From Methylomonas rivi (GTDB lineage: Bacteria > Pseudomonadota > Gammaproteobacteria > Methylococcales > Methylomonadaceae): a stretch of 51,659 nucleotides of DNA. The DNA is taken from positions 1 through 51,659 of the forward strand of contig NZ_JANIBK010000014.1 in assembly GCF_024505165.1 (NCBI RefSeq). The letters are read 5' to 3'. Numbering within the stretch: the stretch's first letter is position 1; each line of letters starts with the position of its first letter. The translations under genes and the position numbers were made by a program. A model generated the notes under the pieces. It saw only the letters and a list, made by a program, of their open reading frames with translations. It was not told the DNA's origin and did not search any database. Positions 6,388 through 31,833 of this stretch are shown one piece after another.

Positions 6388-7458
6388 TTATAACGACGCC
6401 AGCGTGATCAATTTTTTCATCAGTTCGGCCTGGCTGTGCGCATTCATTTTTTGCATGGTGTGCTTGATATGGTTGCGCACCGTTTCTTGCGAGCGGTAGG
6501 TATGGTTTGCGATGTCGGCTATGGACGGGTTCCTCATGAAGTGCAGGGCGCAAATGGCTTCGCAGCGGGACAGACTGTGAAGGCGCATCAAACGCTCCAG
6601 GGCCGGATTTTTATCTTTTTCATGGGTAAACGACAGAATGAAGCCATCCATATAGCATTCCCATTGGTACAGATTTTTTAAAGCGGCGATGGGAATCAGG
6701 GAAATTTGGCAGGACTGGCATTGGTTATGGATGGAACTGCTTTCCTGGTTGTGCCGCATCAGGGACAGCAGTTTTTGTTCGATGGCCTGGTTTTTCATGC
6801 CGAAGCGGTTTTCCGAAATTTGCACGCAATCCAGCTGGCTGATGATGGCCGTATAGATCGGGTCGGAAAACAGAATATTCAGCTCATGATCGACGATGAT
6901 ATAGCCGTCGAAATGATCGCCCAGATGGTGAAGCAACTGGGTATTGATTTTATGGCGTTGCTCCTTATGGATGGCGTCTTGCAGCTTCGGCAGCGTATTT
7001 TCCAATAGCCGGCCGATATGCTGTTGCTCCGTGTCCGTGAATTCGGTTTTGCGATTGAGCAGCAGGCTGAGGGCATGGTTTTGCGCGCAGGCCAAGGCGA
7101 CGCCGAAGCGAAAATGTTGTTGGCCGGGCGGGTAAAAAACGCTTTTATGCTCGCCGGGGAGTTCGTTGCGCAGATTTTGGTTGCAGACTACCCGCCGCGG
7201 ATTTTGGCAGATGTAGCGGTTGAAGTGGTCTTGCCGGTTGAGTTTGTCTTCGTACTGTTCTTGGTACTGTTTCGGGATATGGGCGCTGAACAGAAAACGG
7301 GTCTTGCCGTAATCGTTCAGGTCGGTCACCAGTAAGGCGCTGGAGTCGCAGGACAGTTGCCGGGCCAGTTCGAGCAGAAAGCGGTTCCAGATTAAAGGAT
7401 AGCCGGGGGCGTTGGCCAGTATGGTATGCAGATATAGGTCGTCGGATAATTGCCTCAT
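6388..7458 (-). CDS. LuxR-family transcriptional regulator, divergent from the haem-protein operon
   Basis: A 356-residue protein whose last 60 residues form a LuxR/GerE-type helix-turn-helix (LSRCEAICALHFMRNPSIAD, with recognition helix around SQETVRNHIKHTMQKM). The N-terminal 280 residues have no recognisable acyl-homoserine-lactone domain. They contain a PAS-like stretch around YIIVDHELNILFSDP and many Cys and His residues, including a C-x2-C pair (CQSC). Its ATG at 7458 has AAGGGTGG upstream. It is transcribed away from the six-gene haem peroxidase operon across a 379-bp shared upstream region with a 16-bp dyad, so it is the obvious candidate regulator of that operon. That link is inference from position. 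Confidence 0.85.
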   Translation of the reverse strand: MRQLSDDLYLHTILANAPGYPLIWNRFLLELARQLSCDSSALLVTDLNDYGKTRFLFSAHIPKQYQEQYEDKLNRQDHFNRYICQNPRRVVCNQNLRNELPGEHKSVFYPPGQQHFRFGVALACAQNHALSLLLNRKTEFTDTEQQHIGRLLENTLPKLQDAIHKEQRHKINTQLLHHLGDHFDGYIIVDHELNILFSDPIYTAIISQLDCVQISENRFGMKNQAIEQKLLSLMRHNQESSSIHNQCQSCQISLIPIAALKNLYQWECYMDGFILSFTHEKDKNPALERLMRLHSLSRCEAICALHFMRNPSIADIANHTYRSQETVRNHIKHTMQKMNAHSQAELMKKLITLASL

Positions 7459-7837: not shown

Positions 7838-10777
7838 ATGAAAACAACTATAAGGGTGCCGGTTCTGTTTGTAACGTCATGGTTTATGGCGACCGTTTGT
7901 AACGGGGAAGCCATTTCAACCTTGGAAAGAATCAAGGCCGACAAGGCTTGCGCGGCAATGGCCGCCAAGGGTTTCCGGCCGCTTGCCCAGCAGCAAACCG
8001 AACGTTTTCTAGGCAAGGTCAGCGAGGACACCGCGGAATGCCGAGGCGGCAAAAAAGCCTTGGCGGGCCGCAGCGTGGTGTGGGTGGATTGGCCCAATTA
8101 TTGGGGTACCGGAGACGCCAGCAGCAAGGCTGAAGGTTGGGAGTCCATCACCAAGCTGGGCAAGCATCTCAATCCCAACGGCAGGGGCGTGGACGGCGCG
8201 TTGATGGATCTGGAATATCAGCGCATGGAATTACTGCGCTTCAATCTCTACGACAACAAGACCTACGAAACCTATATCAAAGGCGTCGGCAGCACGCCCG
8301 GACCGGTGGTGAAAGTATGGGCGGAAATGCGTTTGCCGCACACTCACCCACTATATGAGCAAGTGACCGGCAAGGACGGCACCCAGCTCTGTAACGGCGA
8401 TTTGATCCGCCATCGCACCATCGACGGGATCTGCAACGACATTTTCAATCCGGCCATGGGCTCGACCAACCAGTTGTTCGCCCGCAATGTCAGCTTCGAT
8501 TCGACCTTTCCGGATTTGGGAGCCAACGAACTGGTCCGCAACCGCCACGGCGACCGCCTGAGTTTGTTAAAGCCCGACCCGCAAGTCATCTCCAGAAAAT
8601 TGTTTACCCGCAATCAGTCGAAACCCGATGTCTGTAACCAGGGCCATGGCTTGCCCGGCGATGCCAAAACCGCCGAATGCGACTATAAAAAAGCCCCGTT
8701 TTTTAACGTATTGGCGGCCTATTGGATACAGTTCATGACCCACGATTGGTTCTACCATTTGCGGGAAGGCCAGAATACCGAAGCCAGAATGCCGGTCGGT
8801 TGTACCACGCAATTGGTCAATAACCAGGAACAGCCGTTGACCGCCGAACAGGCCGCCAAACTGGGTTGCCGGCCCAACGACAAGGTGGATGTGGCCTTGA
8901 TCGCGCAAAAGGAACCTGCGCCGACTTTCGAATACGAGGGAAAAACCTATTTGTCCCGCGCCCACCGCACCACCGAAAACACCGTCACCGCCTGGTGGGA
9001 TGCCTCGCAAATCTACGGCTTCGACGAACTTTCGCAAAAACGGGTGAAACGCGACCCCAAAGACCCGGCTAAATTATTGATGGTGCAGCGCGGCAATCAT
9101 AGCGCGGCCGGCGAAAAGCAAGGTTATCTGCCGGTATTCAACAGTTGCGAAAACGCCGGCCCCGACTGTACCCCCGATCCCATCAATCCGGCCTGGAAAG
9201 GCCAGGAAGCCGCCGGTTTCGCGGATAACTGGACGGTGGGCATGAGTTTTTACCATAACCTGTTCGTGCGCGAACACAACGCCTTTGTCGATAAATTCCG
9301 CGCCAACGCCGAGGTCAACCCGGATTTAGACTCCGGTTTGCGCAATCCGGAACATCCCGAGCAGGTGATTACCTATAAAAAAGTCAGCGACGAAGAGTTG
9401 TACCAAGCGGCCCGTCTGGTGGTGGCCGCCGAGATCGCCAAAATTCACACCATCGAATGGACCACCCAGCTGTTATACGACGAACCGCTTTATTTAGGCA
9501 TGAACGCCAACTGGAACGGGCTGTTGATGAAGGACGATCCTGTTTCCAAGGCCTTGAAAAAAGTATTGGATAAATTGGTGGTGAACAAACTCGCTAAATC
9601 CGAGCGGGAAACCAAAGCCAACCAGTTTTATTCGGTGTTCGCCTCTGGCGCCGGCATTTTCGGCTTAGGCAGCCACCGTTATAAAGACCACCCCACCTTT
9701 TTGGGCCGCTTGATCGACAAAAAGGATATTTGGGATATTCGTAATCCGGAACACGTAAACGGCGGTATCAACCATTTCGGCTCGCCGTTTAATTTTCCGG
9801 AAGAGTTTCCCACCGTTTACCGCCTGCATCCTTTATTGCCCGATTTGCTGGAATACCGGGATTTACAGGCGCCGAATACGATCGCCAAAAAAGTGCCGGT
9901 AGTCGGCACCTTTAGAGGCAAGGCTACCCAGGCCATGGCCGACGGCGGCTTGAGCAACTGGGCGTTGAGCATGGGCCGGCAACGTCTCGGCTTGTTGACC
10001 TTGCAGAACCACGCCCAATTTTTGCAAAATCTGGATTTGCCGCGCCTGAACACCGAAACCAACAAAATCGATATCGCGGCATTGGATTTGATCCGGGACC
10101 GGGAACGCGGCTTACCGCGCTTTAACGAATTCCGCCGCCAATACGGTTTGAAACAGCTGACCAGCTTCGACGATTTTATCGACTGGCGCTTGCCGACCAA
10201 CAGCGCGGAATATCTGGAGCAGAAACGCCTGACCGGGTTGTTGCGCGAAGTCTACGGCCAGCATAAATGCGATGCCGGCAAGATCATCACGGCAGCGCAG
10301 TTGAATGAGGACGGTTCGCGCATCAACGATTGCCTGGGGCATCCGGACGGCAGCATGGTCGACAATATCGAGGATCTGGATACCGTGGTCGGTTGGCTGT
10401 CGGAGTTTACCCGTCCGCACGGTTACGCCATTTCCGAAACCCAGTTTCATGTGTTTATCCTGAATGCCTCGCGGCGTTTGTTTAGCGACCGTTTCTTTAC
10501 TTCCAGCTTCCGTCCGGAATTTTATTCCTCGCTGGGCGTGGAGTGGGTCATGAACAACGGCCCCGACGGCAAGCAAATGGAACCCAAACCTTCCAACGGC
10601 CACGAGGTCGAAGTGTCGCCGTTGAAAAGGATCATGCTGCGCACCATGCCCGAGCTGAAAGATCAGTTGGCCGGCGTCGTCAATGTGTTCGACCCGTGGG
10701 CCAGGGACAGGGGCACGGACTACACCTTGCAGTGGAAACCGCAAAGCAGCGCGGCGGGCGATGAAAGCTTTAAGTAA
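7838..10777 (+). CDS. Alpha-dioxygenase/cyclooxygenase-like haem protein (animal haem peroxidase superfamily), exported
   Basis: A 979-residue protein with a likely signal peptide (about residues 1-24). The body resembles fatty-acid alpha-dioxygenases of the cyclooxygenase/animal peroxidase superfamily. Residues 298-302 read Q-F-M-T-H, matching the distal Q-x3-H of cyclooxygenases. Conserved blocks follow: WWDASQIYG (386-394), FVREHN (476-481) and IAKIHTIEWT (533-542). YRLH (661-664) places a tyrosine three residues before the proximal His, the spacing of the radical-forming Tyr and haem-ligand His in cyclooxygenase and plant alpha-DOX. The last third keeps the alpha-DOX RDRERGLPRFNEFRR and ASRRLFSDRFFTS blocks. 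Plant enzymes are about 640 residues, so this one has a long extra N-terminal part. Such enzymes add O2 to fatty acids. The substrate here is unknown. It is the first gene of a six-gene operon. Confidence 0.85.
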   Translation: MKTTIRVPVLFVTSWFMATVCNGEAISTLERIKADKACAAMAAKGFRPLAQQQTERFLGKVSEDTAECRGGKKALAGRSVVWVDWPNYWGTGDASSKAEGWESITKLGKHLNPNGRGVDGALMDLEYQRMELLRFNLYDNKTYETYIKGVGSTPGPVVKVWAEMRLPHTHPLYEQVTGKDGTQLCNGDLIRHRTIDGICNDIFNPAMGSTNQLFARNVSFDSTFPDLGANELVRNRHGDRLSLLKPDPQVISRKLFTRNQSKPDVCNQGHGLPGDAKTAECDYKKAPFFNVLAAYWIQFMTHDWFYHLREGQNTEARMPVGCTTQLVNNQEQPLTAEQAAKLGCRPNDKVDVALIAQKEPAPTFEYEGKTYLSRAHRTTENTVTAWWDASQIYGFDELSQKRVKRDPKDPAKLLMVQRGNHSAAGEKQGYLPVFNSCENAGPDCTPDPINPAWKGQEAAGFADNWTVGMSFYHNLFVREHNAFVDKFRANAEVNPDLDSGLRNPEHPEQVITYKKVSDEELYQAARLVVAAEIAKIHTIEWTTQLLYDEPLYLGMNANWNGLLMKDDPVSKALKKVLDKLVVNKLAKSERETKANQFYSVFASGAGIFGLGSHRYKDHPTFLGRLIDKKDIWDIRNPEHVNGGINHFGSPFNFPEEFPTVYRLHPLLPDLLEYRDLQAPNTIAKKVPVVGTFRGKATQAMADGGLSNWALSMGRQRLGLLTLQNHAQFLQNLDLPRLNTETNKIDIAALDLIRDRERGLPRFNEFRRQYGLKQLTSFDDFIDWRLPTNSAEYLEQKRLTGLLREVYGQHKCDAGKIITAAQLNEDGSRINDCLGHPDGSMVDNIEDLDTVVGWLSEFTRPHGYAISETQFHVFILNASRRLFSDRFFTSSFRPEFYSSLGVEWVMNNGPDGKQMEPKPSNGHEVEVSPLKRIMLRTMPELKDQLAGVVNVFDPWARDRGTDYTLQWKPQSSAAGDESFK

Positions 10778-10811
10778 GCAAAGGACATAACAGCAGCGGG
10801 GGGCGGCGATT

Positions 10812-11765
10812 ATGAATCAAGAAATGCCGATTGACGATTTAGTTGCCGAAATGGACCGGGGGATTACGGCCGTCATCACCAACGAAGCCGAAGACGGCAT
10901 CGTACCCCGCTTCAATCAGGCCAAAACCATAGGCTGTTTGCGGGGCGAGTTTCGCGTGCATGAGGATATTCCCGCCGAATTGAAGCACGGGGTTTTTTCC
11001 GAAGCGAAAACCTATCCAGCCATGCTGAGGTTTGCCAACGCCACCAGCCGGGACGATGCCGAAAAGGATGTGCGCGGCTTGTCGATACGGCTCTCCGGTG
11101 TGGAGGGGCCGGTACTTTGGGGAGAGCCTGATTGCCAGGATTTTATTCTAAATAGCTATCCTGCTCTATTCGTGGCCACGCCGGAAGATTTTCTGGGCTT
11201 TATCCAGGCCCGGCAGGCCAATCGGAAACTGTGGTTTTTTTTGAACCCGTTCGATCCGCATCTGAAAGCGTTGTGGATAGCCTTTAAATCCCGGCAAAAG
11301 CATTTGTGTCCGTTCGATGTGAGGTTCTGGAGTACCACGCCTTACAAGTTAGGTGAAGACAGCGGCCAAGCGGTGAAATATTCCGTGATCCCCTGTTCGG
11401 ATTATCAAACTTTGCAAGCCGAAAAACCGGGCCGTAACCAGTTGCGCGCGGCGATGAAAGCGCATTTACAGCGTTTTCCGGCCAAGTTTCATTTCGCCGT
11501 GCAACTGCAAACCGATCCATTAATCATGCCGATCGAGGATGCCTCGGTGATTTGGGATGAAACGGTTTCGCCTTTTCAAATTGTCGCCACCATCACGATA
11601 GAAGACCAGGATTTCGACGACCCGGAGGCGTTGGCCGAGTGCGAACGCAGCAGTTTTAATCCTTGGCAATGTCTGGCGGCGCACGAACCCTTGGGGCGCA
11701 TGAATCAGGTTCGCCGCCTGGTGTATGCCCATGCCGCCGCCGTTCGCAACCGCAATCAGGAGTAA
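10812..11765 (+). CDS. Catalase-fold haem protein 1 (catalase-like, atypical distal site)
   Basis: A 317-residue protein related to the short catalase-like proteins rather than true catalases, which exceed 480 residues. Shared features are RGEFRVHEDIP, TYPAMLRFANA, the QLQTDPLIMPIEDASVIW block and a C-terminal PLG-N-R tail with an R-x3-Y motif (R301/Y305) that matches the proximal haem tyrosine. By my alignment the distal catalytic His falls at Gln36 (NQAKTIG) and the distal Asn region reads NSYP (114-117). Classical catalase activity is therefore doubtful. It follows the dioxygenase gene by 34 bp. Catalase-fold proteins in other organisms can convert fatty-acid hydroperoxides (coral allene oxide synthase), which makes a role with the upstream gene plausible. 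Confidence 0.8.
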   Translation: MNQEMPIDDLVAEMDRGITAVITNEAEDGIVPRFNQAKTIGCLRGEFRVHEDIPAELKHGVFSEAKTYPAMLRFANATSRDDAEKDVRGLSIRLSGVEGPVLWGEPDCQDFILNSYPALFVATPEDFLGFIQARQANRKLWFFLNPFDPHLKALWIAFKSRQKHLCPFDVRFWSTTPYKLGEDSGQAVKYSVIPCSDYQTLQAEKPGRNQLRAAMKAHLQRFPAKFHFAVQLQTDPLIMPIEDASVIWDETVSPFQIVATITIEDQDFDDPEALAECERSSFNPWQCLAAHEPLGRMNQVRRLVYAHAAAVRNRNQE

Positions 11766-11770
11766 GCAAC

Positions 11771-12235
11771 ATGAACGATACCGTCAACAGTTGGCTGAGC
11801 AAATCGCGCGAAGAGCTGGACGAAATTTATTGTAACGCCACGCCGGGTAGCATTCCCAACGGCGACACCCAAGGCACCGCTATTCTGGCCGGATCGGTGT
11901 TCGCCAAATTGGCGGCATTTTTGGCCGGCGTATATGCCTGGCAAGGCAAGCGTTTCGATTTGTTTTGCCCCGGCGGCCGGGCCGGGGTGCTGGTGAATAA
12001 AATCACCTATTTCAGTCTGACCTTTATCGTCGCCAAGGTGTACATGGACAAAAGCTGGCTGGACCAAAAAGACACCATCGTCATCGATTATTCGAAAACA
12101 TCGTTTTTCGCCAAAGCGATACGGGATGAAATTCGCGAGATCGAGCCGGGCGTTTACCTGGGCAAGGTCTGGTGGGGTAAAAAGCGGATTCTGGACTTTG
12201 CCTTGACCCGCAAAGAGCCTGAAAAAACCACATAG
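11771..12235 (+). CDS. Conserved hypothetical protein in the haem-protein operon
   Basis: A 154-residue protein with start ATG at 11771, chosen because AGGAG (11758-11762) precedes it at good spacing; it begins only 5 bp after the previous stop. It has no signal peptide and no cofactor motif. The pattern of short alternating hydrophobic strands, a DGDT-like opening (NGDTQGTAI) and a closing PGVYLGKVWWGKKRILDFAL suggests a small beta-barrel or calycin-like fold that could bind a hydrophobic ligand. That is a guess from pattern only. I do not recognise a named family. Confidence 0.75.
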   Translation: MNDTVNSWLSKSREELDEIYCNATPGSIPNGDTQGTAILAGSVFAKLAAFLAGVYAWQGKRFDLFCPGGRAGVLVNKITYFSLTFIVAKVYMDKSWLDQKDTIVIDYSKTSFFAKAIRDEIREIEPGVYLGKVWWGKKRILDFALTRKEPEKTT

Positions 12236-12249
12236 CCGAGCCCGTCGCC

Positions 12250-13551
12250 ATGATCCCGCAATCCACCTTCATGATAGTGGCTCCGGTTCGCGACGGCGAG
12301 CTGGAAAACCTGCGCGGTTTGCTGGCGGGTATGAATAAATCCGTGGGATTGGCCGATCCGGCCAACCCGCTGGTGCCTTTCGGCGCATTCGAACGCCTAC
12401 ACATGGCGCGCTTTGTCATCATAGAAGCGATTACCGGAGACGATATAAAGGCTTTCGGCAGAGAGCCGCGGCCGTGGCAGCCGGCCTTGGCGTTTCTGGG
12501 CGACTTCGACGGCGACAGACTGGATTTTTTAACCGAATTGGCGGAACGGGCCGAGGAGGGGTTGCAGCAAATATTCGCTCATTGCGAAGGTTTCTCCAAG
12601 GCATTCGATCTGCTCAGCTGGATGGTGACGCATAACATCGAGCCGGCGGCCAATTACGTCAATTGGCTTGGGCGCACGGTCAGGCAGGTGCATGAAGAAG
12701 CAGCGTTGCATCAATGTCTGTCGGAATATTTACCGCAAATCGTCGCTGAGATGGGGCGTGACAACCCCCGTGTTTTGCGGCAAAAACTGTTATCTCATGT
12801 CGAGATGCAAAAGCACGCTGGCCTCCTCAAACTGAGTCCGGAAGACCCCACGCCGCTGGCTTGGATGATCCGGAACGGGCTGCACAAGATCGGGGTACCG
12901 TTGGTTTTATTGTTGTTATCGCCGGTATTCCTGATCTTGGCGCCTTTTTTTGCATTGCGCTTGCGTATGTTGGAACGATCCGATCCGGAGCTGTTCATCC
13001 GCCCGAGCCGCGAACACATCGAAGCCTTGGCCTATTTGGAAGACCGGGATGTCAGCAATCAATTCAATGTGTTCGGCGATATCAAACCGGGGCTGTTCCG
13101 CTTGTTGCTGTTCAAATTTTTAATGCTGCTGACTGATTACGTGGCCAGACACGTTTATAACCGCGGCTTTCTGACCCGGATCAGGAGCATACATTTTGCC
13201 CGCTGGGTATTCATGGATAACAATCGCCGGGCATTTTTCGCCAGCAATTACGACGGCAGCCATGAAAGCTATATGGACGATTTCATCAACAAGGCCGGTT
13301 GGGGCTTGAACGCGGCCTTCAGTAACGCGATCGGCTATCCCACGACCCGTTGGATATTCAAACAGGGCGCGGAACGCGAGCAGCAATTCAAGTACACGCA
13401 AAGGCGGCACCAGTTGCCGTCCGAAGTCTGGTACAAGGCCTATCCGGATTTGACGGCCATCGATTTGGCGCGCAACAGCCGCATTCGTAAAGGCGTGGAA
13501 ATACGCCAAGCGAACGATCAGGCCATACGCGACTGGCTCGGCGAAATTTAG
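12250..13551 (+). CDS. Membrane protein with duplicated ferredoxin-like domains, haem-protein operon
   Basis: The 433-residue protein has no family I can name. An internal duplication is visible. Residues 50-115 contain LHMARFVII, FLGDFDGD and a final AHCEGF. Residues 314-363 contain IHFARWVFM, FASNYDGS and a final SNAIGY. The two copies share the layout H-x-A-R-[FW]-V, [FY]-DG and a long helix. Between them lies a strongly hydrophobic segment (about 214-236), probably one membrane hairpin or span. The repeated strand-DG-helix layout resembles the ferredoxin-like halves of Dyp peroxidases, but neither copy has a haem motif. It sits 14 bp after the previous gene and 10 bp before the Dyp-type peroxidase, so it is part of the operon. 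Confidence 0.75.
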   Translation: MIPQSTFMIVAPVRDGELENLRGLLAGMNKSVGLADPANPLVPFGAFERLHMARFVIIEAITGDDIKAFGREPRPWQPALAFLGDFDGDRLDFLTELAERAEEGLQQIFAHCEGFSKAFDLLSWMVTHNIEPAANYVNWLGRTVRQVHEEAALHQCLSEYLPQIVAEMGRDNPRVLRQKLLSHVEMQKHAGLLKLSPEDPTPLAWMIRNGLHKIGVPLVLLLLSPVFLILAPFFALRLRMLERSDPELFIRPSREHIEALAYLEDRDVSNQFNVFGDIKPGLFRLLLFKFLMLLTDYVARHVYNRGFLTRIRSIHFARWVFMDNNRRAFFASNYDGSHESYMDDFINKAGWGLNAAFSNAIGYPTTRWIFKQGAEREQQFKYTQRRHQLPSEVWYKAYPDLTAIDLARNSRIRKGVEIRQANDQAIRDWLGEI

Positions 13552-13561
13552 GCAGGCAATC

Positions 13562-15091
13562 ATGGCGACGACACCTACGAGCGATTTTCCATTCGACGAC
13601 CTGCAAGGGCTGTTGCGTTTTGGTCATGGGCATTTAAAGGACAGCTGCTTCTTATTATTGCAGGTGGCCGACGTCAAAGCCGCCAAGCAGTGGCTGGCGG
13701 ATGCCCCTGTTTCGCCGGCGACGCAGCACGGTTCTCGCCCGAAGACAGCCTTGCAGATTGCCTTCTCCGTGGCCGGGTTGCGCGCTTTAGGCTTGAAAGA
13801 GTCAGTCGTCCGGGATTTTTCCGATGAATTTATCGGCGGTATGGCCGGCCACGAAAGCCGCTCCCGCCGCCTCGGCGATGTGGGCGCCAATGCGCCGGCA
13901 TACTGGGCGTGGGGCGGCGACAGCGAAAACGTGCCGCATGTGCTGCTGCTGTTATATGCCGAAGCCGGCAAAATCGGTGCCTGGCGTAAAAAAGTGGAAA
14001 CCAAGTTGTTTGCCAAGGCCTTCAGCTTAGCGGCCGAATTACCGACCCTGGATATAGGCAATGTCGAACCCTTCGGCTTTGTCGATGGCATTAGCCAACC
14101 CGATATCGATTGGGCGGGCCGGCAGTCAGTCGACAGTCATAGCCGCGACGGTTTTTCCAATCGGTTGGCGGTCGGCGAAGTGGTGTTGGGCTACCGCAAC
14201 GAATACGGCCAATACACGGTCAGACCGTTGATCGATCCCGCCGGCGATCCCCATGCGGCGGCATTGCCGCCGGCGGAAGACCGGCCCGAATTCAAGGATT
14301 TTGCCCGTAACGGCAGCTATTTGGTGTTGCGGCAGCTGGGGCAGGATGTGCCGGGCTTCTGGCAATTCCTCGATAAAGCCAGCGGCGGCGATGCCGCACA
14401 GCGCGAACAACTCGCCGCCAGCATGGTGGGCCGGCGGCGGGACGGTTCGCCATTAATGCCGCTCGCAAGCGAGGCCATACCCGGTATTCCCGCCGGCGAC
14501 ACGCTCAATCACTTCAATTATCTGCCTGATCCCAGCGGCACGCGTTGTCCTGTCGGCGCGCATGTGCGTCGGGCCAATCCGCGCAGCGGCGACATGCCTT
14601 CGGTTTCCGGGTGCTTTTTTAGCCGGTTGCTGAAAATTCTGGGTTTCGGGCTTAAACGCTACGACGAGGATTTAATCGCTTCGACGCGCTTTCACCGACT
14701 GCTGCGTCGGGGGCGAACCTATGGTCCGTTGCTGACGCCGGAGCAGGCCGTCAAAGCCGACGCGCCGGTTGTCGAGCGCGGCTTGCAGTTCATCTGCCTA
14801 GTGGCCAATATCTCCCGGCAGTTCGAATTCGTGCAGAACGCCTGGGTGGTGAACAGTAAATTCGCCGGTTTGCAACAGGAACGCGATCCGCTGCTGGCGC
14901 ATCGGCAACCGTTGCATGACGGTACCCCTACCGATCAATTCCACCGCCCCGATCCGGCGGGGCCGGTGCAAACTCTTGCGCATTTGCCGCAATTTATCAG
15001 CGTGCGCGGCGGCGCCTATTTTTTCATGCCGGGACTCAGCGCCATTCGCTATCTCGCCGCCTTACCCACTCAGGGAGACCAGTCGCCATGA
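13562..15091 (+). CDS. Dyp-type haem peroxidase
   Basis: A 509-residue dye-decolorising-type peroxidase. The family signature GFVDG is at 172-176 (catalytic Asp175), the proximal haem His is in GAHVRRANPR (His334), and the distal Arg region is LLRRGRTYG (381-388). There is no Tat signal at the N-terminus, so the protein is probably cytoplasmic unless carried by a partner. These enzymes use H2O2 to oxidise bulky organic substrates, so one could consume peroxides made by the dioxygenase encoded upstream. The natural substrate is unknown. Its TGA overlaps the ATG of the next gene (ATGA at 15088-15091), showing translational coupling. Confidence 0.92.
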   Translation: MATTPTSDFPFDDLQGLLRFGHGHLKDSCFLLLQVADVKAAKQWLADAPVSPATQHGSRPKTALQIAFSVAGLRALGLKESVVRDFSDEFIGGMAGHESRSRRLGDVGANAPAYWAWGGDSENVPHVLLLLYAEAGKIGAWRKKVETKLFAKAFSLAAELPTLDIGNVEPFGFVDGISQPDIDWAGRQSVDSHSRDGFSNRLAVGEVVLGYRNEYGQYTVRPLIDPAGDPHAAALPPAEDRPEFKDFARNGSYLVLRQLGQDVPGFWQFLDKASGGDAAQREQLAASMVGRRRDGSPLMPLASEAIPGIPAGDTLNHFNYLPDPSGTRCPVGAHVRRANPRSGDMPSVSGCFFSRLLKILGFGLKRYDEDLIASTRFHRLLRRGRTYGPLLTPEQAVKADAPVVERGLQFICLVANISRQFEFVQNAWVVNSKFAGLQQERDPLLAHRQPLHDGTPTDQFHRPDPAGPVQTLAHLPQFISVRGGAYFFMPGLSAIRYLAALPTQGDQSP

Positions 15092-16287
15092 CCGTCAAAA
15101 ACTGCATATTAATGGCCATCCACCGGTTTTTGCTGCAACTGTTGTATCTTGAACGCCGGCTGGAACCTCCGTTTCGTCCGGCATGGAACGCGATGTTCCG
15201 GGAGCCGGGCGTCAGGCTGGTGCAGTTTCTGATCAATCTACGCCGCAAGAACGAAGGCTTGAAAATCGCCGAAGAACGCATAGACCCGGACGAAGAGCAA
15301 AGCCTGAGCGACATTATCGACCTGATGGCCGATCAAATGCGCGGCCGCTTCAAACCGGGCGGCTACGAACGCGGCGGCAATACCAAAACTCACGGGGTAT
15401 TGAAGGCCACGGTCACCATTCGCGACGATATACCCGCACATTGTCGGATCGGTATTTTTGCCGAGCCGAAAACCTATAAGGCCTATGTGCGTTACGCCGG
15501 CCCCGGCCCGAACGTACCGTCCGACATTCAGGACGTCGGTTTTTTGAGCATGGCGGTCAAATTGCTGGGGGTGCCCGGCGAAAAGCTGATGGACGAGGAA
15601 AAATTTACCCAGGACATCATCACCACCAGCGGCGGGCCGACTTTTGTGACGCCGAATACCCGCGAAAACGCCAAGCTGCAGTATTGGAGTCTGCGGGATA
15701 TGACCTTGTATTACTTTCTGAACCCGTTGGATACGCATTTGCTGGACATGTTTATGCAAAGCCTGTGGAACGAGACCCAAACCAACCCGCTGGGTAAACG
15801 TTACTGGAGTTGCACGCCGTATCTGCTGGGAGAAGGCCAAGCGGTGATGTATTCCTTCGTGCCGAAAGCCAACATCGTTTCCCCGATACCTGGCTTGCCG
15901 TTCGGCAAGGTACCATTTAATTATCTGCGCGACAACCTGACCAAAACCATCGCCGAAACCGATGTGGAATTCGACTTGATGATACAACTGCAAACCGACC
16001 CGCACTTGATGCCGATAGAAGACAGCTCGGTGCGTTGGCCGGAAAAGCTATCGCCGTTTATCCCGGTCGCCACGGTGCATATTCCAAAACAGGTACACAA
16101 CTTTGACGCCATGGCCGACTTTACCAAACGCCTGAAAATGAACCCCTGGCATTGCCTGCCGGAACACCGGCCACTGGGCAACCTAAACCGGGCCCGCTTC
16201 AGACTATATCGGGAATTGTCAAACTTCCGGCAGGAAATGAATCAGGTCAGCCATCTGGAACCCGCCGGGGATGAGGTGTTTGAATAA
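15088..16287 (+). CDS. Catalase-fold haem protein 2 (catalase-like, atypical distal site)
   Basis: A 399-residue paralogue of the catalase-like protein encoded at 10812, with an extra N-terminal amphipathic or hydrophobic stretch (residues 1-50). It shares TYKAYVRYAGP, QLQTDPHLMPIEDSSVRW and the C-terminal HRPLGNLNRAR block. The proximal R-x3-Y motif is R370/Y374. In my alignment the distal His position is Asn98 (NTKTHG, although a His is nearby at 102), and the distal Asn position falls in SGGP (181-184), so both catalase distal residues appear changed. It is coupled to the Dyp gene by a 4-bp overlap and is the last gene of the operon. Hydroperoxide rearrangement, haem carriage or peroxide sensing are all possible. 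Confidence 0.8.
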   Translation: MTVKNCILMAIHRFLLQLLYLERRLEPPFRPAWNAMFREPGVRLVQFLINLRRKNEGLKIAEERIDPDEEQSLSDIIDLMADQMRGRFKPGGYERGGNTKTHGVLKATVTIRDDIPAHCRIGIFAEPKTYKAYVRYAGPGPNVPSDIQDVGFLSMAVKLLGVPGEKLMDEEKFTQDIITTSGGPTFVTPNTRENAKLQYWSLRDMTLYYFLNPLDTHLLDMFMQSLWNETQTNPLGKRYWSCTPYLLGEGQAVMYSFVPKANIVSPIPGLPFGKVPFNYLRDNLTKTIAETDVEFDLMIQLQTDPHLMPIEDSSVRWPEKLSPFIPVATVHIPKQVHNFDAMADFTKRLKMNPWHCLPEHRPLGNLNRARFRLYRELSNFRQEMNQVSHLEPAGDEVFE

Positions 16288-16519
16288 GCTTGGCGGAATG
16301 TGCTTACCCTGGGTTTCGGCGGAAAAAGGAGAGCTGGCGGAGCATAATTAATTTAAAAATCTCATAATTAGTGATGTGATTGGCAAATAGCGTCCTACTG
16401 GCGACTTTCAACGCAAATCTGCAAACGGGGGACTGTTCAATTTTTCGGCGCCAGCTCTAATTATCTCCAGTAAGCCGCCGGTGATTTTTAGCGATGCGCA
16501 ATGGCGAAAGTGTTATCGA

Positions 16520-16924
16520 TCATAAAACAATGACCTTTATTTCCTGAATAGCTGCCAGCTTTTTATCGCCCGTCAGAAACTGATCCGAGCCGGATGTTAT
16601 AGCGCAAGCTAATTGAATGGCGTCAGGTGTTCGTAAGGAACCGGGATGATTGGCGCGAAGTTCCGTAGCAATATCGATGACGGCAGTATCGAGTTCGACG
16701 ATTTCCAGACCGGGCAACCTGAAAAACCGGTCATAGCAATCCAACAATTCCGCATTCTTGGTTTTCAGTGGTAAAACACGGCATTCCAGAAACGACAGTC
16801 GGGATATGCTCAGTTGCGCGTTCGATTTGCTAGCCTTATCGACCAGCAAGCGGGTTTTTCGGCCTTGATCCTGTTGCGACTCGATCAGATAAATGACGGC
16901 GCAAGCGTCCAGGAACAGTTTCAC
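16520..16924 (-). CDS. PIN-domain toxin, VapC type
   Basis: A small PIN-domain ribonuclease of about 134 residues. The acidic metal-binding residues are all visible: Asp6 in LFLDACAVIY, Glu in SFLECRV, Asp in TPDAIQLA and Asp in FLTGDKKL. VapC toxins cleave tRNA or rRNA when freed from their antitoxin. I chose the GTG at 16924, which overlaps the antitoxin stop as GTGA. A second in-frame GTG at 16936 would add four residues and overlap the antitoxin by 16 bp. The order antitoxin-toxin and the overlap are typical of type II pairs. Confidence 0.88.
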   Translation of the reverse strand: MKLFLDACAVIYLIESQQDQGRKTRLLVDKASKSNAQLSISRLSFLECRVLPLKTKNAELLDCYDRFFRLPGLEIVELDTAVIDIATELRANHPGSLRTPDAIQLACAITSGSDQFLTGDKKLAAIQEIKVIVL

Positions 16925-17151
16925 GGTTGATCCCACTCGTCGCGCATTGCCTGAAATTCGGTGTTGATGTCCGCGTCGTTACGTTGGCCAACCGGCAGAC
17001 TGTGCAGAAAAGCAGCCAACGCCTTGTTAGCTTCGGGCTCCGTCGTTGAGTCGGGTTTGGTTTCCAGAAATTCGACGAAATGTAAAACCTCCAAGGCTTT
17101 GGCGGGCGGCAGGGCTTTGACGTGTTGGTAGATGGTGTCGGCAATGGTCAT
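16921..17151 (-). CDS. VapB-type antitoxin (DUF2281-like)
   Basis: A 76-residue protein beginning MTIADTIYQHVKALPPAKAL, the pattern of DUF2281-like antitoxins that precede PIN toxins. The N-terminal helices are followed by an acidic, probably disordered tail that would wrap the toxin. GGAGAA lies upstream of the ATG. It is on the same strand as the large STAND NTPase gene, 63 bp after it, so the toxin-antitoxin pair may be an addiction module of that island. That functional link is inference. Confidence 0.85.
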   Translation of the reverse strand: MTIADTIYQHVKALPPAKALEVLHFVEFLETKPDSTTEPEANKALAAFLHSLPVGQRNDADINTEFQAMRDEWDQP

Positions 17152-17214
17152 TTAAGTTGTTCTCCAGAAAACGTAGTTTGAAAACCGGTCTGTCGATTTT
17201 CGAGTTTAGATGTT

Positions 17215-20200
17215 TCAACGTTCTTCAATATCAATTTTTTGTTTAACGCAAACGATTTCATTTAGCTCATTTAATGAATAAACAAAAGAATGAACTCTGC
17301 GCCCAACGAAATCATCATGATGCTCACCATATGCGCCTTTTTCTCCTGCAATAATCCAGACCGGCGCCAAGTTTTCTTTATCCAGTAAATCTAAAAATGC
17401 CGTTCTGTCGATAAGCGCCGCACTCGGTCCTTCTTCGTGTACCGAAGGATCGTTGAACAAAATTTGGCCTTTAGCGTCTGCAAAGAACAATGTGCGTCCG
17501 TCAATTAGCCTTAAACCAAGTTTTTGTATTAGCCACGGTGCAGGCAAATAAGTATTTATCGTCCCTTCAATCGAGTAATCGTAACCACCACGTTCTGCGG
17601 TGTATTCGGCAAATGTGGGTAACACTTTATAAGGAAAGCCATAATCTCGGTCGACTGTTGTCCAGTCATCGTCCAACTTATATGACGGATGCCAAGGGTA
17701 TTCGCCTATAAATGAATCATAAAATTCGCCGATTTTTGGAAATGCATCCGGATCGATCAAGTTATGTTTAGAAATCGCATTTATGAATCGGTTTTTATGC
17801 CGTTTTTTGACGACTACACACCAGCATCTACACCATGAATCGATACGCGAGTCCAAATCATAGGAGGTGCCGTATTGCTTAAAACTCTTCAAGACCAGCC
17901 AGCGCTCGCCTGTTTCCGGATCGGTTACATCTAGCAACGACGCACTATTCAATTGATCTGATTCGTTTTGTAACCAGAGTTTCTGCTCCTGTCTCTTCAA
18001 CAAGCGCAATTTTAGCGTTTGCGGCGACCACCAGGCATGGGGATGATTTTCCCATTCATCGTCTTTGGTTTTGCAAATCAATAACGACGGATCGATATTT
18101 CGTTTGTGTATTTGCCAAGGCCCTTCATATCCGTCTGCATCATCGCTGTAACCGGAATCGTAAATTAGATTATCTGCCATTCGGGCCAACAACTCATATA
18201 AAGCCAGCCATTGGTATTTTTTTCCAATTCGTTCCATTTGTTTATGGCGTCTGCCTCGGCCGGAACCGATTTTGTCATCGAACTCGCCAAATAAATCATG
18301 GCTCCATCCGTAATCGTGAGCCCATTTGGTTACCCAGCGCTGGGCTAAAATAGCGTCAAAATGTTCCGGTCGATTGTTTGAATATCGGTTAAGAACTTGT
18401 CGCACTCCTTGCCGACATCCTGACCAGTATTCGTATTTATATTTTTCGTCGAGTAAATCGATAAATTTTTTCTCAAGTTCTTCGAATTTAGTTTCGTTCT
18501 GTTTATTTTGCTCCCACTTTTTATCGTCGTAAGCAACGATTTCGACTTTGATTTCTTTGTCAGAGGCGTGTTTTTGTGATTTTCGACTTTCTGTACTTGG
18601 TTCCGAACTATTGCAGTCGATACAGAATTCCAGCATTTCATTAAAAGCCAAAAATTGATCGGAATTCGCATGATCGGCCAGCATTGAACAGAAGACTTCA
18701 AAGTTTTTGTGCGGCGTTAATGCTTTATCTACGCCCAACGGTGTTACTGTCCAATGATGAACGGAGGGCTTAATAATATATTTGGCAAAATCGCCAAGCC
18801 ACTCACTGCTTGCCGATCTAACGATATCATCCTTGTATTTGTCGCCATATTTCGCCAAGTCCTCCTCGGCCACAAACTCAATCGGCCAATCACTTTGGTA
18901 CGGTGGCCGTACTTTTTCAATTTTAATTTCTTCAGGCAATAAGTCACAATGTAATGCGTATTCGATGATACCTCGGGCATAGTCGCGTAACAGCAAATGG
19001 GGTGACGGCTTACCATCGGCAAAAATCCATTGATAAACAAAAAGAGCAAGTTCGGGTAGATTTTTTTGGGTTTGAGCTTGTAATGCGGCACCATAGCAGG
19101 CCGCTAATAGCCGCTCCAAAATGTAAAGGTCATCGACCTGCTTGAAACGCTCCAGCAGAGTAACCGCTAACGGCAAACGTGGTGCCAGTAAAGCGGATAA
19201 TCCCTTGGTAGCCCGATCTCGAAGGGTGCGATACGACGTCGAAAATAGCCATGTCAACATCGTTGCCGCCAATTCGGCGCGTATTGGATCTATTTCCTCA
19301 AAACCCGATTCCAGTGTCCAGGAAAGCAAGGTATCAAGTGGCGAACCATCCTCTAGGCTCAGATTGGCGATAGCAATAGACCATTTAGTATCGCGCTCAG
19401 GCATCGTCAAAGGAGCCAATTTTTCATGCAGGTAATTGGCATTGAAGCGATTATTTGGTTCCGTACTAACGGCAATAAGCGTTTCCAACCAGTAGTCTCG
19501 ATAGTCTTGAGAAAAATCAATCACCAATTCTCGGGTTCTATCGGTAAAACGATCCTGACGGCGTAATAATAAACTTTTCAAAAATGCTTCATTGACTGTC
19601 CATTGGTATGATCCCTTATCGGATGGAAATATATCGAGCAATTCGTAATCTGTAGTTTCCGGTAGCAAAACCGCTAATGCTTCTATAATGCCGGCAACCC
19701 TATTTATATCTTTACGGGAAAGAAAAGTGTGTAGCGAAGTCCCTGCTTCCAATGGTTGAACGCTATTTTCCGAAGAAAGATGCTCATTTAACAATTGCCC
19801 AGCAATTTGAAAATCACTGAAACGTTCGAACGTAAATCGCACTTGTTCTTCCGAATGGTTACTTTCGATATAAACAGGTTCAATTGTTAATATTCCCTCA
19901 TGTTCAAATTGGCTTAACAAGCTGCGGTCTTGTCGGCCTGTGGAAGAATAAATCGAATCAAAACAAGCAATAGTCGTTTCAATTGGTAGATATGAAGATT
20001 GGTTAAATAGCAATTTTTCGGTGAATGCCTTCAACGCACGCGCAATAATGTTCTGCCTTTTATCTAGCCCCATCCGCAATTCAATTTGGTTAGCTAAAGA
20101 TTTTAGATAGAAATCAAAATATTCCGTTAAACCTTGAATTCCTCGTGGAAAACAGTTAAGCCCTTGCCGTTCCAAGCTGTCGCACAAGGTTTTAAGGAAA

Positions 20201-21747: not shown

Positions 21748-21931
21748 TTCTGAGCAAGGCGGCCAAATCCTGGCGTTCCAAGGCTTGCGGTGGTAGTGAG
21801 GCGGCAAAGCTATTTTGCTGGTAGGTTAATTTGCTCAGTAACAGCAAATTCCACCAGTGGAAAACCAGCGCCGGAAATGTGGCGGTTAATAGTTTGACCA
21901 GTTGTTGATTGAGCAGGCCGAGGATTTCCAT
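21740..21931 (-). CDS. Possible small hydrophobic protein coupled to the Avs-like gene
   Basis: A 63-codon ORF whose TAA overlaps the ATG of the Avs-like gene by 8 bp (ATGAATAA), as in translationally coupled pairs. Its middle is hydrophobic (TATFPALVFHWWNLLLLS), which could be one membrane span. No family is recognised and the ribosome binding site is weak. It could equally be a leader ORF or chance. Confidence 0.35.
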   Translation of the reverse strand: MEILGLLNQQLVKLLTATFPALVFHWWNLLLLSKLTYQQNSFAASLPPQALERQDLAALLRNE

Positions 21932-30925: not shown

Positions 30926-30930
30926 CGCCC

Positions 30931-31833
30931 ATGACTCAACCAGCCCGTATTTTAATTGTCGACGATGCGACGGATAACATCGAGTTTCTGGCCAGGATTC
31001 TGGACGACGCGTACGAAGTGCAAATCGCCACCAGCGGGCCTATGGCCTTGGAGTTGGCCGGTCGGGAGCCGCCGGCGTTAATTCTGCTGGATGTGGCGAT
31101 GCCGGGCATGGATGGTTATCAGGTGCTCAACGCATTGCGGGAATTGAGCCAGTGTCGCGATATTCCGGTGATATTCATTACCGGCCATGGCGATACGGAA
31201 AACGAGACGCGCGGGCTGGAAGCGGGCGCGGTGGATTTTATTTCCAAACCGGTCAATCCGGCGGTGGTGAGGGCTCGCGTCAATACCCATTTGACGCTGA
31301 AGGCAAAATCCGACCAGTTGCGTTCGCTGGTCTCCATCGACAGTCTGACAGGCCTGACCAACCGCCGCCGGTTTGACGAATTTTTAGCGTTGGAATGGTT
31401 GCATTGCCAACGTTATGGTTGGCCGTTGACCCTGTTGTTCATCGATATCGATTACTTCAAACTGTATAACGACCATTACGGCCATCTCGCGGGAGATGCT
31501 TGTCTGGCAAGGGTGGCGGCGGCTATTGGCGGCCAGTTCGGCCGTTCCCACGACTTGGTGGCGCGGTATGGCGGCGAGGAATTCGTTTGCCTGCTGCCCC
31601 AATGCGACATGGCCAAGGTACGCAACAAGGGGTATGAATTGTGCGATGCCGTGGCCGGATTGCGGATACCGCACGAGACGTCCCCGACGGCGCCGGTGGT
31701 GACTATCAGTATTGGTATCGCCGCCATGATACCGGGTCAGGATGCCAACGATCCGGAAGCGTTGGTGGACTTGGCGGACCGGAACCTCTATATCGCCAAA
31801 TCGCAAGGGCGGAACCGGCTATGCGACGGTTGA
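30931..31833 (+). CDS. Response-regulator diguanylate cyclase (REC-GGDEF)
   Basis: A 300-residue product from the ATG at 30931, 5 bp after the kinase stop; an upstream ATG at 30904 would overlap the kinase gene. The receiver domain has ILLDVAMPGMDG (Asp54) and the conserved Lys in FISKPVNP. The GGDEF domain carries an active GGEEF signature (214-218), with an RSHD inhibitory I-site five residues before it. It should make c-di-GMP when phosphorylated by the adjacent hybrid kinase through the Hpt domain. The pair looks like one operon and one pathway. Confidence 0.93.
   Translation: MTQPARILIVDDATDNIEFLARILDDAYEVQIATSGPMALELAGREPPALILLDVAMPGMDGYQVLNALRELSQCRDIPVIFITGHGDTENETRGLEAGAVDFISKPVNPAVVRARVNTHLTLKAKSDQLRSLVSIDSLTGLTNRRRFDEFLALEWLHCQRYGWPLTLLFIDIDYFKLYNDHYGHLAGDACLARVAAAIGGQFGRSHDLVARYGGEEFVCLLPQCDMAKVRNKGYELCDAVAGLRIPHETSPTAPVVTISIGIAAMIPGQDANDPEALVDLADRNLYIAKSQGRNRLCDG

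Follow-up and report, generated by a model that had tools for sequence, protein, structure and literature searches.

What a bacterium does with a single operon of several haem proteins is the question raised by a locus of the methanotroph Methylomonas rivi, in a stretch of 51,659 nucleotides analyzed here as a whole (the window). A preliminary description, made from the letters alone, had proposed an oxylipin or lipid-peroxide pathway, encoded by a six-gene operon with gaps of 5 to 34 bp and one 4-bp overlap. The coordinates confirm this layout, with six open reading frames (ORFs) on one strand at 7838-16287, intergenic gaps of 34, 5, 14 and 10 bp, and a 4-bp overlap between g5 and g6 (Table 1). 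The g3 start is the ATG chosen here, as the ORF list places it further upstream. The divergent neighboring gene encodes a LuxR-type protein (GerE, PF00196; E = 3e-6). A regulator of this type adjoins the operon in L007-L010, was looked for in L011 and not found there, and was counted in 4 of the 80 loci compared below (L019, L021, L022 and L045, all of methanotrophs).

Table 1. Genes of the operon and the divergent flanking gene, in window coordinates.
Feature	Coordinates	Strand	Length	Assignment
g1	7838-10777	+	979 aa	Alpha-dioxygenase-like haem oxygenase; N-terminal hydrophobic (export-like) segment
g2	10812-11765	+	317 aa	Catalase-fold protein, constant partner of g1; Gln36 at distal His position
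g3	11771-12235	+	154 aa	Small core protein; possible lipocalin/FABP-like beta-barrel
g4	12250-13551	+	433 aa	Core protein; predicted ABM-like dimeric alpha+beta barrel domains and hydrophobic membrane hairpin
g5	13562-15091	+	509 aa	DyP-type peroxidase
g6	15088-16287	+	399 aa	Second catalase-fold protein, core member; Asn98 at distal His position, haem Tyr374 retained
LuxR-type regulator	6388-7458	-		Candidate for operon control; divergent; C-terminal GerE HTH

The g1 product matches the animal haem peroxidase family (PF03098; E = 1.1e-67), and its best PDB match by profile is the rice alpha-oxidase 4kvj (E = 2.2e-75). H302, H537, Y661, H664, R879 and R880 are invariant in all 27 aligned members, and T542, the counterpart of rice Thr316, is also among the invariant positions. 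Y661 and H664 align with the rice catalytic Y379 and proximal H382, and H537, R880 and H302 are the counterparts of the carboxylate-binding His311 and Arg559 and of the distal His157, respectively (each 27/27). The portion of PMC8720084 consulted gives Y379, H382, His311 and Arg559 these same roles, lists Thr316 beside them, and describes His157 as conserved across only part of the alpha-dioxygenase family. By a crude hydropathy test, 20 of the 27 members carry an export-like segment. With these residues in place, g1 probably works as a fatty-acid alpha-dioxygenase, which supports the earlier assignment of an alpha-dioxygenase/cyclooxygenase-like first gene. The family PF03098 spans peroxidases as well as oxygenases, and lactoperoxidase and peroxinectin A are weak matches to g1, so one could picture a mere peroxidase of the kind named peroxicin or peroxinectin in bacteria, with the operon generating extracellular oxidants. 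Such a role is highly improbable, as alpha-dioxygenases match g1 at E = 1.5e-54 versus 2.7e-5 for the best lactoperoxidase, and both the Tyr three residues ahead of the proximal His and the alpha-dioxygenase His/Arg pair are invariant.

The g2 product scores above the cut-off for Catalase (PF00199; E = 5.5e-8; 32.7 bits versus 25), and its best PDB match is the coral allene oxide synthase 1u5u (E = 3.7e-8), followed by 3e4w (E = 1.8e-6). For g6, the best PDB match is the same coral enzyme, weakly (E = 0.001), and profile-profile comparison joins g2 and g6 at E = 2.3e-57. By sequence comparison, the two are catalase-fold paralogues, g6 through its homology to g2 and its weak coral match, which bears out the two catalase-fold proteins of the preliminary description. 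Gln36 of g2 aligns with the catalase distal His (alignment probability 93%) and is conserved in 22/22 members, as are R301 and Y305 of the proximal Arg-x-x-x-Tyr. This proximal motif is also retained in g6, where N98, R370 and Y374 occur in 32/32 members; Asn98 was placed opposite the distal His by way of g2, the direct alignment of g6 with catalase being weak and in a different register. A monofunctional catalase was considered for both proteins and rejected, since the distal His is replaced by Gln or Asn throughout even though the haem Tyr is kept, so that neither is an ordinary catalase. An export-like segment was detected in 10/22 g2 members (the window's g2 lacks one) and 1/32 g6 members by the same crude test. 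Among 26 loci with g2, 24 hold g1, and in the other two (L020 and L047) the contig starts at g2.

This absence of the distal His also weighs against a second reading, in which g2-g6 would destroy lipid hydroperoxides born of stress and so protect the membrane, the oxygenase being part of the stress response. It has several points in its favor: three further proteins of haem-enzyme type stand beside g1; methanotrophs and ammonia oxidizers have an O2-dependent membrane metabolism; and a six-frame search of the window's genome gave no PF00199 match, whereas three genomes of its genus (G008, G010 and G012) encode strong catalases, although, with g2 too missed by the search, absence can be claimed for strong catalases alone. 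The g5 product, in the core of the operon, would suit such a defense as well, having kept its DyP residues: D175, H334, R376, R379, R382 and R383, which we take to be the distal Asp (GxxDG), proximal His and distal Arg of DyP enzymes, are present in 79/79 aligned proteins. The Dyp-type peroxidase named earlier is thus upheld by its residues, with scores below every curated cut-off (TIGR01413, E = 1.6e-20, 73.7 bits versus 100.5; Pfam DyP_N and Dyp_perox_C likewise). On the other side, a dedicated fatty-acid oxygenase would be producing the very compound that the adjoining set removes, and a lipoxygenase, a cyclooxygenase (COX) homologue and patatins adjoin the core in some loci. Overall, we regard peroxide defense, the simplest alternative in the preliminary description, as the less likely reading, though a serious one.

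The remaining two proteins, g3 and g4, had been described as of unknown function and, like g6, match no Pfam family at E 0.1. The g3 structure model is weak (pLDDT 68.2); its best Foldseek match is 4mve (E = 2.5e-5), and the other 49 matches listed are mostly CRABP, FABP or lipocalin-type barrels with E above 0.01, so that g3 may be a beta-barrel of lipid-binding (lipocalin/FABP-like) type. The g4 model (pLDDT 88.3) has three structural matches with E < 0.001, all of them WhiE-ORFI/AbxO polyketide ABM/SchA-like proteins (WhiE-ORFI 9lmn, E = 2.9e-5; AbxO 9ltx, E = 1.1e-4), with poor superposition. With a hydrophobic hairpin at about residues 210-241 by hydropathy, g4 is predicted to be a membrane-anchored protein of ABM-like fold. 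Export-like segments were scored in 12/47 g3 and 0/50 g4 members by the crude hydropathy test. The g4 matches raise the prospect of natural-product tailoring, where g4 would be an ABM-type monooxygenase, cyclase or decarboxylase acting on a phenolic or polyketide-like substrate. Tyrosinases adjoin 4/80 loci, and GMC oxidoreductases and P450s, both met among the relatives described below, are common tailoring enzymes. Polyketide, peptide and terpene synthases are nevertheless absent among the ten neighbor clusters named by Pfam, a partial view confined to those ten, and the alpha-dioxygenase carboxylate-binding residues are conserved in g1; tailoring is therefore rather improbable.

Comparison with other genomes separates the operon into parts. 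The set comprised 80 loci from six phyla, many of them close relatives; carriers include methanotrophs, ammonia oxidizers, Variovorax, Roseovarius, Acidobacteriota and Verrucomicrobiota, among others, and the synteny extends far beyond close relatives. All six genes occur in identical order in 22/80 loci, an association beyond chance. Five of eight re-fetched genomes (G013, G014, G015, G045 and G412) hold all six, G016 runs from g1 through part of g4 to the contig end, G191 has g4-g6 only, and G202 has only g4- and g5-like parts within a fusion; as G014, G015, G045, G191 and G412 are contigs already among the 80 loci, they add no further evidence. All six genes also occur in two members of sulfate-reducing genera, an isolate of Desulfopila (L046) and a MAG of Desulfocapsa (L048), which was counted against the making of oxygenated fatty acids.

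The most conserved unit is g3-g6, with g3 in 77/80 and g6 in 76/80 loci; in the 65 loci with 3.5 kb on either side of g4, g3 was found in 64, g5 in 65 and g6 in 64. The g1-g2 pair is one exchangeable front end of this core; other front ends combine a GMC oxidoreductase and a di-haem c-type protein, or consist of a lipoxygenase with or without a COX homologue (best PDB match COX-2, E = 1.7e-65). At least one of g1, COX, lipoxygenase or di-haem protein is present in 56/56 loci having 8 kb on both sides, a count made post hoc, once the families had been found in the same loci, and including as g1 two paralogues of 28% identity (L023 and L030, both of which also hold a lipoxygenase). Overall, the figure is 73/80, and L033 has a core without an oxygenase in the 8 kb upstream, with only 0.6 kb visible past g6. 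The base rates in the window's class are 4/274 genomes for lipoxygenase and 21/274 for An_peroxidase. Ten recurrent clusters, chosen for Pfam naming from 757 clustered non-operon ORFs, include GMC, lipoxygenase, An_peroxidase, three patatin families and a Tle1-like lipase.

The di-haem protein shows a remote relationship to di-haem peroxidases, scoring 39 bits where the cut-off is 150. Two CXXCH motifs occur in 35/35 of the di-haem ORFs listed (> 600 aa), and the NN[TS]V part of the MauG-type PYxHNGSV motif occurs in 16/35, the preceding His being absent in each; an oxygenase activity for this protein is a guess. No P450 was found among the 80 loci (0/80). In relatives outside them, four records join a P450, the C-terminal part of g4 and a DyP in one ORF. 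The I-helix reads G-F-x-P-T-T in three of five P450s examined and GGPPQP in one more, the fifth being unreadable.

Taken together, we consider it somewhat better than an even chance that oxygenated fatty acids are both produced and further processed by this operon, with interchangeable oxygenases feeding a shared peroxide-processing core. To judge from its residues, g1, probably exported, would convert a free fatty acid and O2 to a 2-hydroperoxy fatty acid. Both g2 and g6, haem proteins whose distal residue is an amide (Gln or Asn), would have organic hydroperoxides, not H2O2, as their substrates. The DyP g5, which would sit at the membrane together with g4 and be assisted by a possibly lipid-binding g3, would then reduce or rearrange peroxides, conceivably to a 2-hydroxy fatty acid or, via decarboxylation, a shortened aldehyde. 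Depending on the genome, the g3-g6 core would be coupled to g1 and g2, to the di-haem c-type protein and GMC oxidoreductase, or to the lipoxygenase with or without the COX homologue, and a related form would carry a P450 joined to DyP and a portion of g4. While the co-conservation and the residues are plain in the sequences, these reactions are proposals. Export-like segments are frequent in g1, less so in g3, and absent or nearly so in g4 and g6, and the substrate might therefore need to cross the membrane. The pathway first proposed is thus favored by the g1 residues and by lipid-related neighbors (lipoxygenase, COX homologue and patatins), but the coral enzyme cited with it is not a close guide to the chemistry. 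If g1 is an alpha-dioxygenase, it would yield a 2-hydroperoxide, and allene oxide synthases use an allylic hydroperoxide; we know of no role for a 2-hydroperoxide as substrate in allene-oxide or hydroperoxide-lyase chemistry.

A bolder idea, which we hold only tentatively and with rather more doubt than belief, is that g3-g6 is an undescribed, phylum-crossing machine that turns fatty-acid hydroperoxides from any plugged-in oxygenase (alpha-dioxygenase, lipoxygenase, COX homologue or di-haem protein) into defined oxylipins via distal-amide catalase-fold enzymes, the P450-g4-DyP fusions being the same machine with a P450 standing in for the catalase fold. To our knowledge, few bacterial oxylipin systems have been characterized, and a coherent oxidized-lipid pathway, if real, would lie in groups important for methane and nitrogen cycling. 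Culturable carriers would then provide an experimental handle, for example Nitrosomonas europaea ATCC 25978 (L034), with g1, a lipoxygenase and the di-haem protein, or Nitrosospira multiformis Nl7 (L036), with the COX homologue, a lipoxygenase and the di-haem protein. The locus may also be a natural experiment in which the catalase fold shifts from H2O2 removal to organic-peroxide chemistry through exchange of a distal residue. A distal amide is otherwise known from P450-type hydroperoxide isomerases.

Among known systems, the alpha-dioxygenases of rice, Arabidopsis and cyanobacteria (CalDOX, LepDOX and CsDOX) share with g1 the distal His, the carboxylate His and Arg, the Trp-Thr after that His, the catalytic Tyr, the proximal His and two Phe. 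They differ in that g1 has an export-like N-terminus and long insertions (979 aa versus 621 aa for the rice construct) and stands alongside g2 and the core genes g3-g6, and the portions consulted of PMC8720084 and PMC9305512 describe no operon of this type. The coral catalase-related allene oxide synthase/hydroperoxide lyase (1u5u, 3dy5) is the closest solved relative of g2 and, weakly, of g6, all keeping the proximal Arg and Tyr, as catalase does. The available part of PMC5617202 assigns the coral enzyme T66, H67 and N137, and alignment through catalase would put Gln (g2) or Asn (g6) at the position of His67. The coral parallel drawn in the preliminary description accordingly stands as a best structural match, but since the distal His shared by catalase and the coral enzyme is absent, the latter is a relative rather than a like-for-like model.

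Two other systems resemble the variants of the core. The oleate 10S-DOX and 7,10-diol synthase of Pseudomonas aeruginosa (PA2077 and PA2078) form a bacterial oxylipin pathway that also uses di-haem proteins, with 245 and 235 residues between their haem motifs in the part of PMC4496055 consulted, versus 220-256 in the 35 core-adjacent di-haem ORFs, a likeness of motif spacing. They differ in that the window has no di-haem protein, and that part of PMC4496055 notes no catalase-fold or DyP partner. Fungal dioxygenase-P450 fusions, the linoleate diol synthases, likewise combine an oxygenase with a self-sufficient haem enzyme that uses its hydroperoxide, several having a distal Asn, according to the portion of PMC13049297 consulted. 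In relatives of the operon, however, the P450 is joined to the g4 part and DyP and not to a dioxygenase, and the window has no such P450 fusion.

In Nostoc punctiforme, a dioxygenase gene and a catalase-related gene are reportedly adjacent. The pair comprises a linoleate 10S-dioxygenase and a catalase-related hydroperoxide lyase (Brash 2014, via PMC13049297 and PMC9579011); it differs from the present one in that g1 is of alpha-dioxygenase type and g2 and g6 lack the distal His, and the consulted parts of these two sources note no g3-g6 core, which a literature search likewise did not find. Compared by description, a COX-superfamily fatty-acid oxygenase stands in tandem with a catalase relative in Nostoc much as g1 adjoins g2, and on these partial sources the pairing of a dioxygenase with a catalase relative is already known.

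The small possible barrel protein g3, the predicted membrane-anchored g4, the DyP-type peroxidase g5 and the catalase-fold protein g6 are encoded by a conserved core of four genes that is found with several different candidate oxygenases. Scanning genome contigs with a g4 alignment yielded 148 relatives, and the best 80 of these 148 loci were used for all counts, with the operon genes located in each by tblastn. In this set, g3 was present in 77 loci, g5 in 80, g6 in 76, the alpha-dioxygenase-like g1 in 35 and the second catalase-fold gene, g2, in 26; g4 was the search bait, and its own 80 of 80 is uninformative. Where g4 is flanked on both sides by 3.5 kb or more (65 loci), g3 occurred in 64, g5 in 65 and g6 in 64, and it is on these counts that g3-g6 is recognized as the core. 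All six genes were found in the window's order in 22 of the 80 loci, and the 80 loci span six phyla (some records being MAGs), bearing out the conserved co-occurrence that the preliminary description had proposed to look for. The contig scan and the locus counts led us to reject the idea of a gene set private to close relatives.

The arrangement and distribution of these genes are nevertheless uneven. In the Acidobacteriota and Verrucomicrobiota loci where g6 was found, it lies upstream of g4 in gene order. In a g4 tree, the window's copy clusters with Methylomonas and the Verrucomicrobiota form one clade; the Thermodesulfobacteriota and Acidobacteriota are not single clades, a pattern that is no proof of transfer. 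Distribution within the genus is patchy: of 37 genomes, 5 carry g1, the window's among them (6 of 61 overall), and in the class as a whole g4 was found in 4 of 369, again counting the window's.

In the window itself (contig G000:C14 of a 4.5-Mb genome), the ORF coordinates agree with the packed operon originally proposed, with six plus-strand genes separated by gaps of 34, 5, 14 and 10 bp and one 4-bp overlap. A divergent LuxR-type regulator gene sits upstream, the GC content of the operon is 0.556 versus 0.537 for the window, and promoter and terminator scans gave signals not above the level of shuffled sequence. Pfam searches matched g1 to Animal haem peroxidase, g2 to Catalase and, below threshold, g5 to DyP, with no family found for g3, g4 or g6; an NCBIfam search of g1-g4 and g6 gave no credible match. 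Immediately 3′ of the operon, a PIN-domain gene and a 1530-aa ORF occupy a GC-poor stretch (0.44 at 16500-21900 versus 0.54 window-wide) that is perhaps an inserted element. Elsewhere in the window, a 1602-aa hybrid histidine kinase with CHASE and multiple PAS domains overlaps a GGDEF response regulator, and another protein combines an ethylene-receptor-like N-terminal domain (ETR1_N, E 1.5e-41) with PAS, GGDEF and EAL domains, by which ethylene sensing could possibly be linked to cyclic-di-GMP.

Coordinates of the operon and of associated features
Feature	Record	Position
Six-gene operon, g1-g6	Window	7838-16287
PIN-domain gene and 1530-aa ORF	Window	16520-21807
Hybrid histidine kinase	Window	26117-31833
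ETR1_N-PAS-GGDEF-EAL protein	Window	44197-47016
COX homologue, 535 aa	L026	16044-17663
COX homologue, 535 aa	L035	16009-17616
Second g3-like stretch	L026	1077-1670
Second g3-like stretch	L035	1132-1725
P450-g4-like-DyP single protein, 1423-1620 aa	L018	6880-11151
P450-g4-like-DyP single protein, 1423-1620 aa	L102	3835-8106
P450-g4-like-DyP single protein, 1423-1620 aa	L103	3829-8160
P450-g4-like-DyP single protein, 1423-1620 aa	L104	3787-8649

The neighbors of the core were called with a simple longest-ORF script, which may miss small or overlapped genes. From 757 clustered non-operon ORFs, ten clusters were picked by eye and one member of each was named via Pfam, giving a two-CXXCH protein (Cytochrom_C only), a GMC oxidoreductase, a lipoxygenase (E 1.7e-56), another An_peroxidase, three patatin families, a Tle1-like lipase, a tyrosinase and DUF5995. 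By tblastn with representatives, the di-haem (two-CXXCH) protein was found in 45 of the 80 loci, the GMC oxidoreductase in 42, lipoxygenase in 11, the second An_peroxidase, a cyclooxygenase (COX) homologue, in 7 and P450 in none. Where at least 8 kb was available on both sides (56 loci), g1, COX or lipoxygenase occurred in 34, the di-haem protein in 35 and one or other of these in all 56; over all 80 loci, at least one was present in 73. Of the seven loci without a candidate oxygenase, six end less than 3 kb from g4 on one or both sides, and L033 has none over 8 kb upstream; An_peroxidase does occur on a separate contig in its genome, G191, and likewise in genome G202. As background, lipoxygenase was found in 4 and An_peroxidase in 21 of 274 genomes of the window's class, a comparison that covers these two families.

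These front ends differ in their distribution. In 24 of 26 loci g2 is accompanied by g1, the remaining two being contigs that begin at g2, and the di-haem protein was found beside g2 in none of the 26. The 11 lipoxygenase loci are all from Nitrosomonadaceae and therefore represent few independent events. In Nitrosospira and Nitrosovibrio, a homologue of mammalian cyclooxygenase adjoins lipoxygenase and the g3-g6 core (L026, L035, L036, L037, L038, L040 and L041); this 535-aa An_peroxidase matches COX-2 at E 1.7e-65 (residues 9-518, L035 copy) versus 2.9e-18 for alpha-dioxygenase. Against a di-haem peroxidase model, the di-haem family reaches only 39 bits. The spacing of its haem motifs, 220-256 residues in 35 ORFs, is near the 245 and 235 reported for PA2077 and PA2078, respectively, with 199 in RoxA (PMC4496055). 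Two further plasmids carry An_peroxidase genes in similar company: one of Calothrix (L099), with a GMC oxidoreductase and a patatin that echo the core's neighbors, and one of Rhizobium phaseoli (L101), with a di-haem peroxidase-like cytochrome c that passes the NCBIfam cut-off.

Among solved structures, those nearest to g1 are plant alpha-dioxygenases (phmmer E 1.5e-54; profile E 2.2e-75), and a plain lactoperoxidase type was rejected, the top lactoperoxidase reaching only E 2.7e-5. The functional residues reported for the rice enzyme, namely the distal H157, the carboxylate-binding H311 and R559, and T316, Y379, H382, F375 and F552 (PMC8720084, whose numbering is chain position minus 3), correspond by profile alignment to H302, H537, R880, T542, Y661, H664, F657 and F873 of g1. 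H302, H537, Y661, H664 and R880 are kept in 27 of 27 aligned rows, and T542, F657 and F873 are likewise invariant. The rows comprise the window and 26 of the 35 g1-bearing loci, omitting 28%-identity paralogues (L023, L030), end-cut copies (L025, L042, L044, L054, L065), one in several frames (L028) and, for no particular reason, L059. The likely reaction of g1, judging from these residues, is 2-hydroperoxidation of free fatty acids, and it is likely exported, since a crude test found a hydrophobic N-terminal segment in 20 of 27 rows. Bacteria of five phyla, Proteobacteria and Acidobacteria among them, have been noted to carry sequences of this enzyme type (PMC8720084).

The catalase-fold proteins g2 and g6 are paralogous (profile comparison E 2.3e-57). 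In a profile alignment with four catalases from related genomes, g2 Arg301 and Tyr305 align with the Arg and the haem Tyr of catalase, Asn114 with the first Asn of the Gly-Asn-Asn motif, and Gln36 with the distal His (probability 93%, shallow profiles). Direct alignment of g6 with catalases was weak and in a different register (probability 35%), and its Asn98 was located through the g2-g6 alignment; phmmer with g6 alone gave weak, unrelated matches only. Gln36 is kept in 22 of 22 g2 rows (21 of 26 loci), Asn98 in 32 of 32 g6 rows (31 of 76 loci), and the Arg/Tyr pairs are invariant in both. Ordinary catalase activity was rejected as their chief job because the distal His is absent. Among solved chains, g2 is nearest to coral allene oxide synthase (AOS), followed by 3e4w, a putative uncharacterized protein. 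The coral enzyme has T66, H67 and N137, with O-O cleavage assigned to H67 (PMC5617202), and since it retains this distal His, g2 (Gln36) and g6 (Asn98) are unlike both it and catalase. An Asn near the haem iron is reported for plant AOS, prostacyclin synthase and fungal diol synthases and can be dispensable (PMC13049297); the distal amide of g2 and g6 would, we infer, serve organic-peroxide chemistry. In a six-frame search of 21 genomes, strong PF00199 catalases were absent from the window's genome and present in the same-genus G008, G010 and G012; this search also missed g2 and covers strong catalases only.

Among the remaining core proteins, g5 retains D175, H334, R376, R379, R382 and R383 in 79 of 79 rows (78 of 80 loci, two lacking a clean full-length translation from match coordinates). 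The predicted g4 model (pLDDT 88.3; 50 rows, 49 of 80 loci) has three structural matches at E < 0.001, all polyketide ABM/SchA-like proteins on which it superposes poorly (TM 0.33-0.39 by query length, rmsd 6.6-7.7), and a hydrophobic stretch at about residues 210-241. The g3 model (47 rows, 46 of 77 loci, L046 excluded for a stop codon in the stretch used) is weak, with a pLDDT of 68.2; its top match is Tcur_1030 (4mve, E 2.5e-5), the other 49 matches listed are mostly CRABP, FABP or lipocalin-type barrels at E > 0.01, and a lipid-binding role is a lead only. A second g3-like stretch, of 28% identity, precedes the core g3 by about 7.6 kb in both Nitrosovibrio loci, L026 and L035.

Fused and minimal forms also occur. 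In G202, one 1423-aa ORF joins a P450 to a stretch resembling residues 213-422 of g4 and to a DyP, and the same fusion is found on plasmids of Pararhizobium (L102), Novosphingobium (L103) and Sulfitobacter (L104); such natural fusions suggest that g4 and g5 may form a complex tethered to the membrane. On a Skermanella plasmid (L106) the parts are split among adjacent genes, one coding for a g4-like protein, one for a DyP and one for an annotated P450, and a trio on a Microvirga plasmid (L107) comprises a catalase-like protein (PF00199 E 0.0015, below cut-off), a short g4-like protein and an annotated peroxidase without a Pfam match. The P450 Cys loop is present by pattern in four of five P450s. 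Three have the I-helix sequence G-F-x-P-T-T and another GGPPQP, all four lacking the usual acid of the canonical motif; the I-helix of L103, whose P450 scores below the Pfam cut-off, is unreadable. Replacement of a catalase fold by a P450 would recall the plant and coral AOS, in which one reaction is carried out by two unrelated folds (PMC5617202).

At the level of sequence, then, co-conservation of the genes, conservation of their residues and variety of the front ends are demonstrated. We infer that g1 would make a 2-hydroperoxy fatty acid outside the cytoplasmic membrane, and that g2, together with the core g6 and g5 on g4, would convert this peroxide to a 2-hydroxy acid, an aldehyde or another oxylipin. 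Alpha-oxidation does not need a polyunsaturated substrate and so would suit a methanotroph with saturated and monounsaturated lipids. Counting against such a pathway, two sulfate reducers (L046, L048) carry all six genes, and g1 may lie on the opposite side of the membrane from the mostly signal-less g3, g4 and g6. Detoxification of peroxides, the simplest alternative in the preliminary description, is a less probable but tenable role for the operon. With respect to known systems, neither the g3-g6 core nor the whole operon was found described in the open-licence PMC papers searched, whereas the pairing of a dioxygenase with a catalase relative is already known; in Nostoc punctiforme, a COX-superfamily dioxygenase is reported to be paired with a catalase relative (PMC13049297, PMC9579011), an arrangement that, compared by description, g1 and g2 share.
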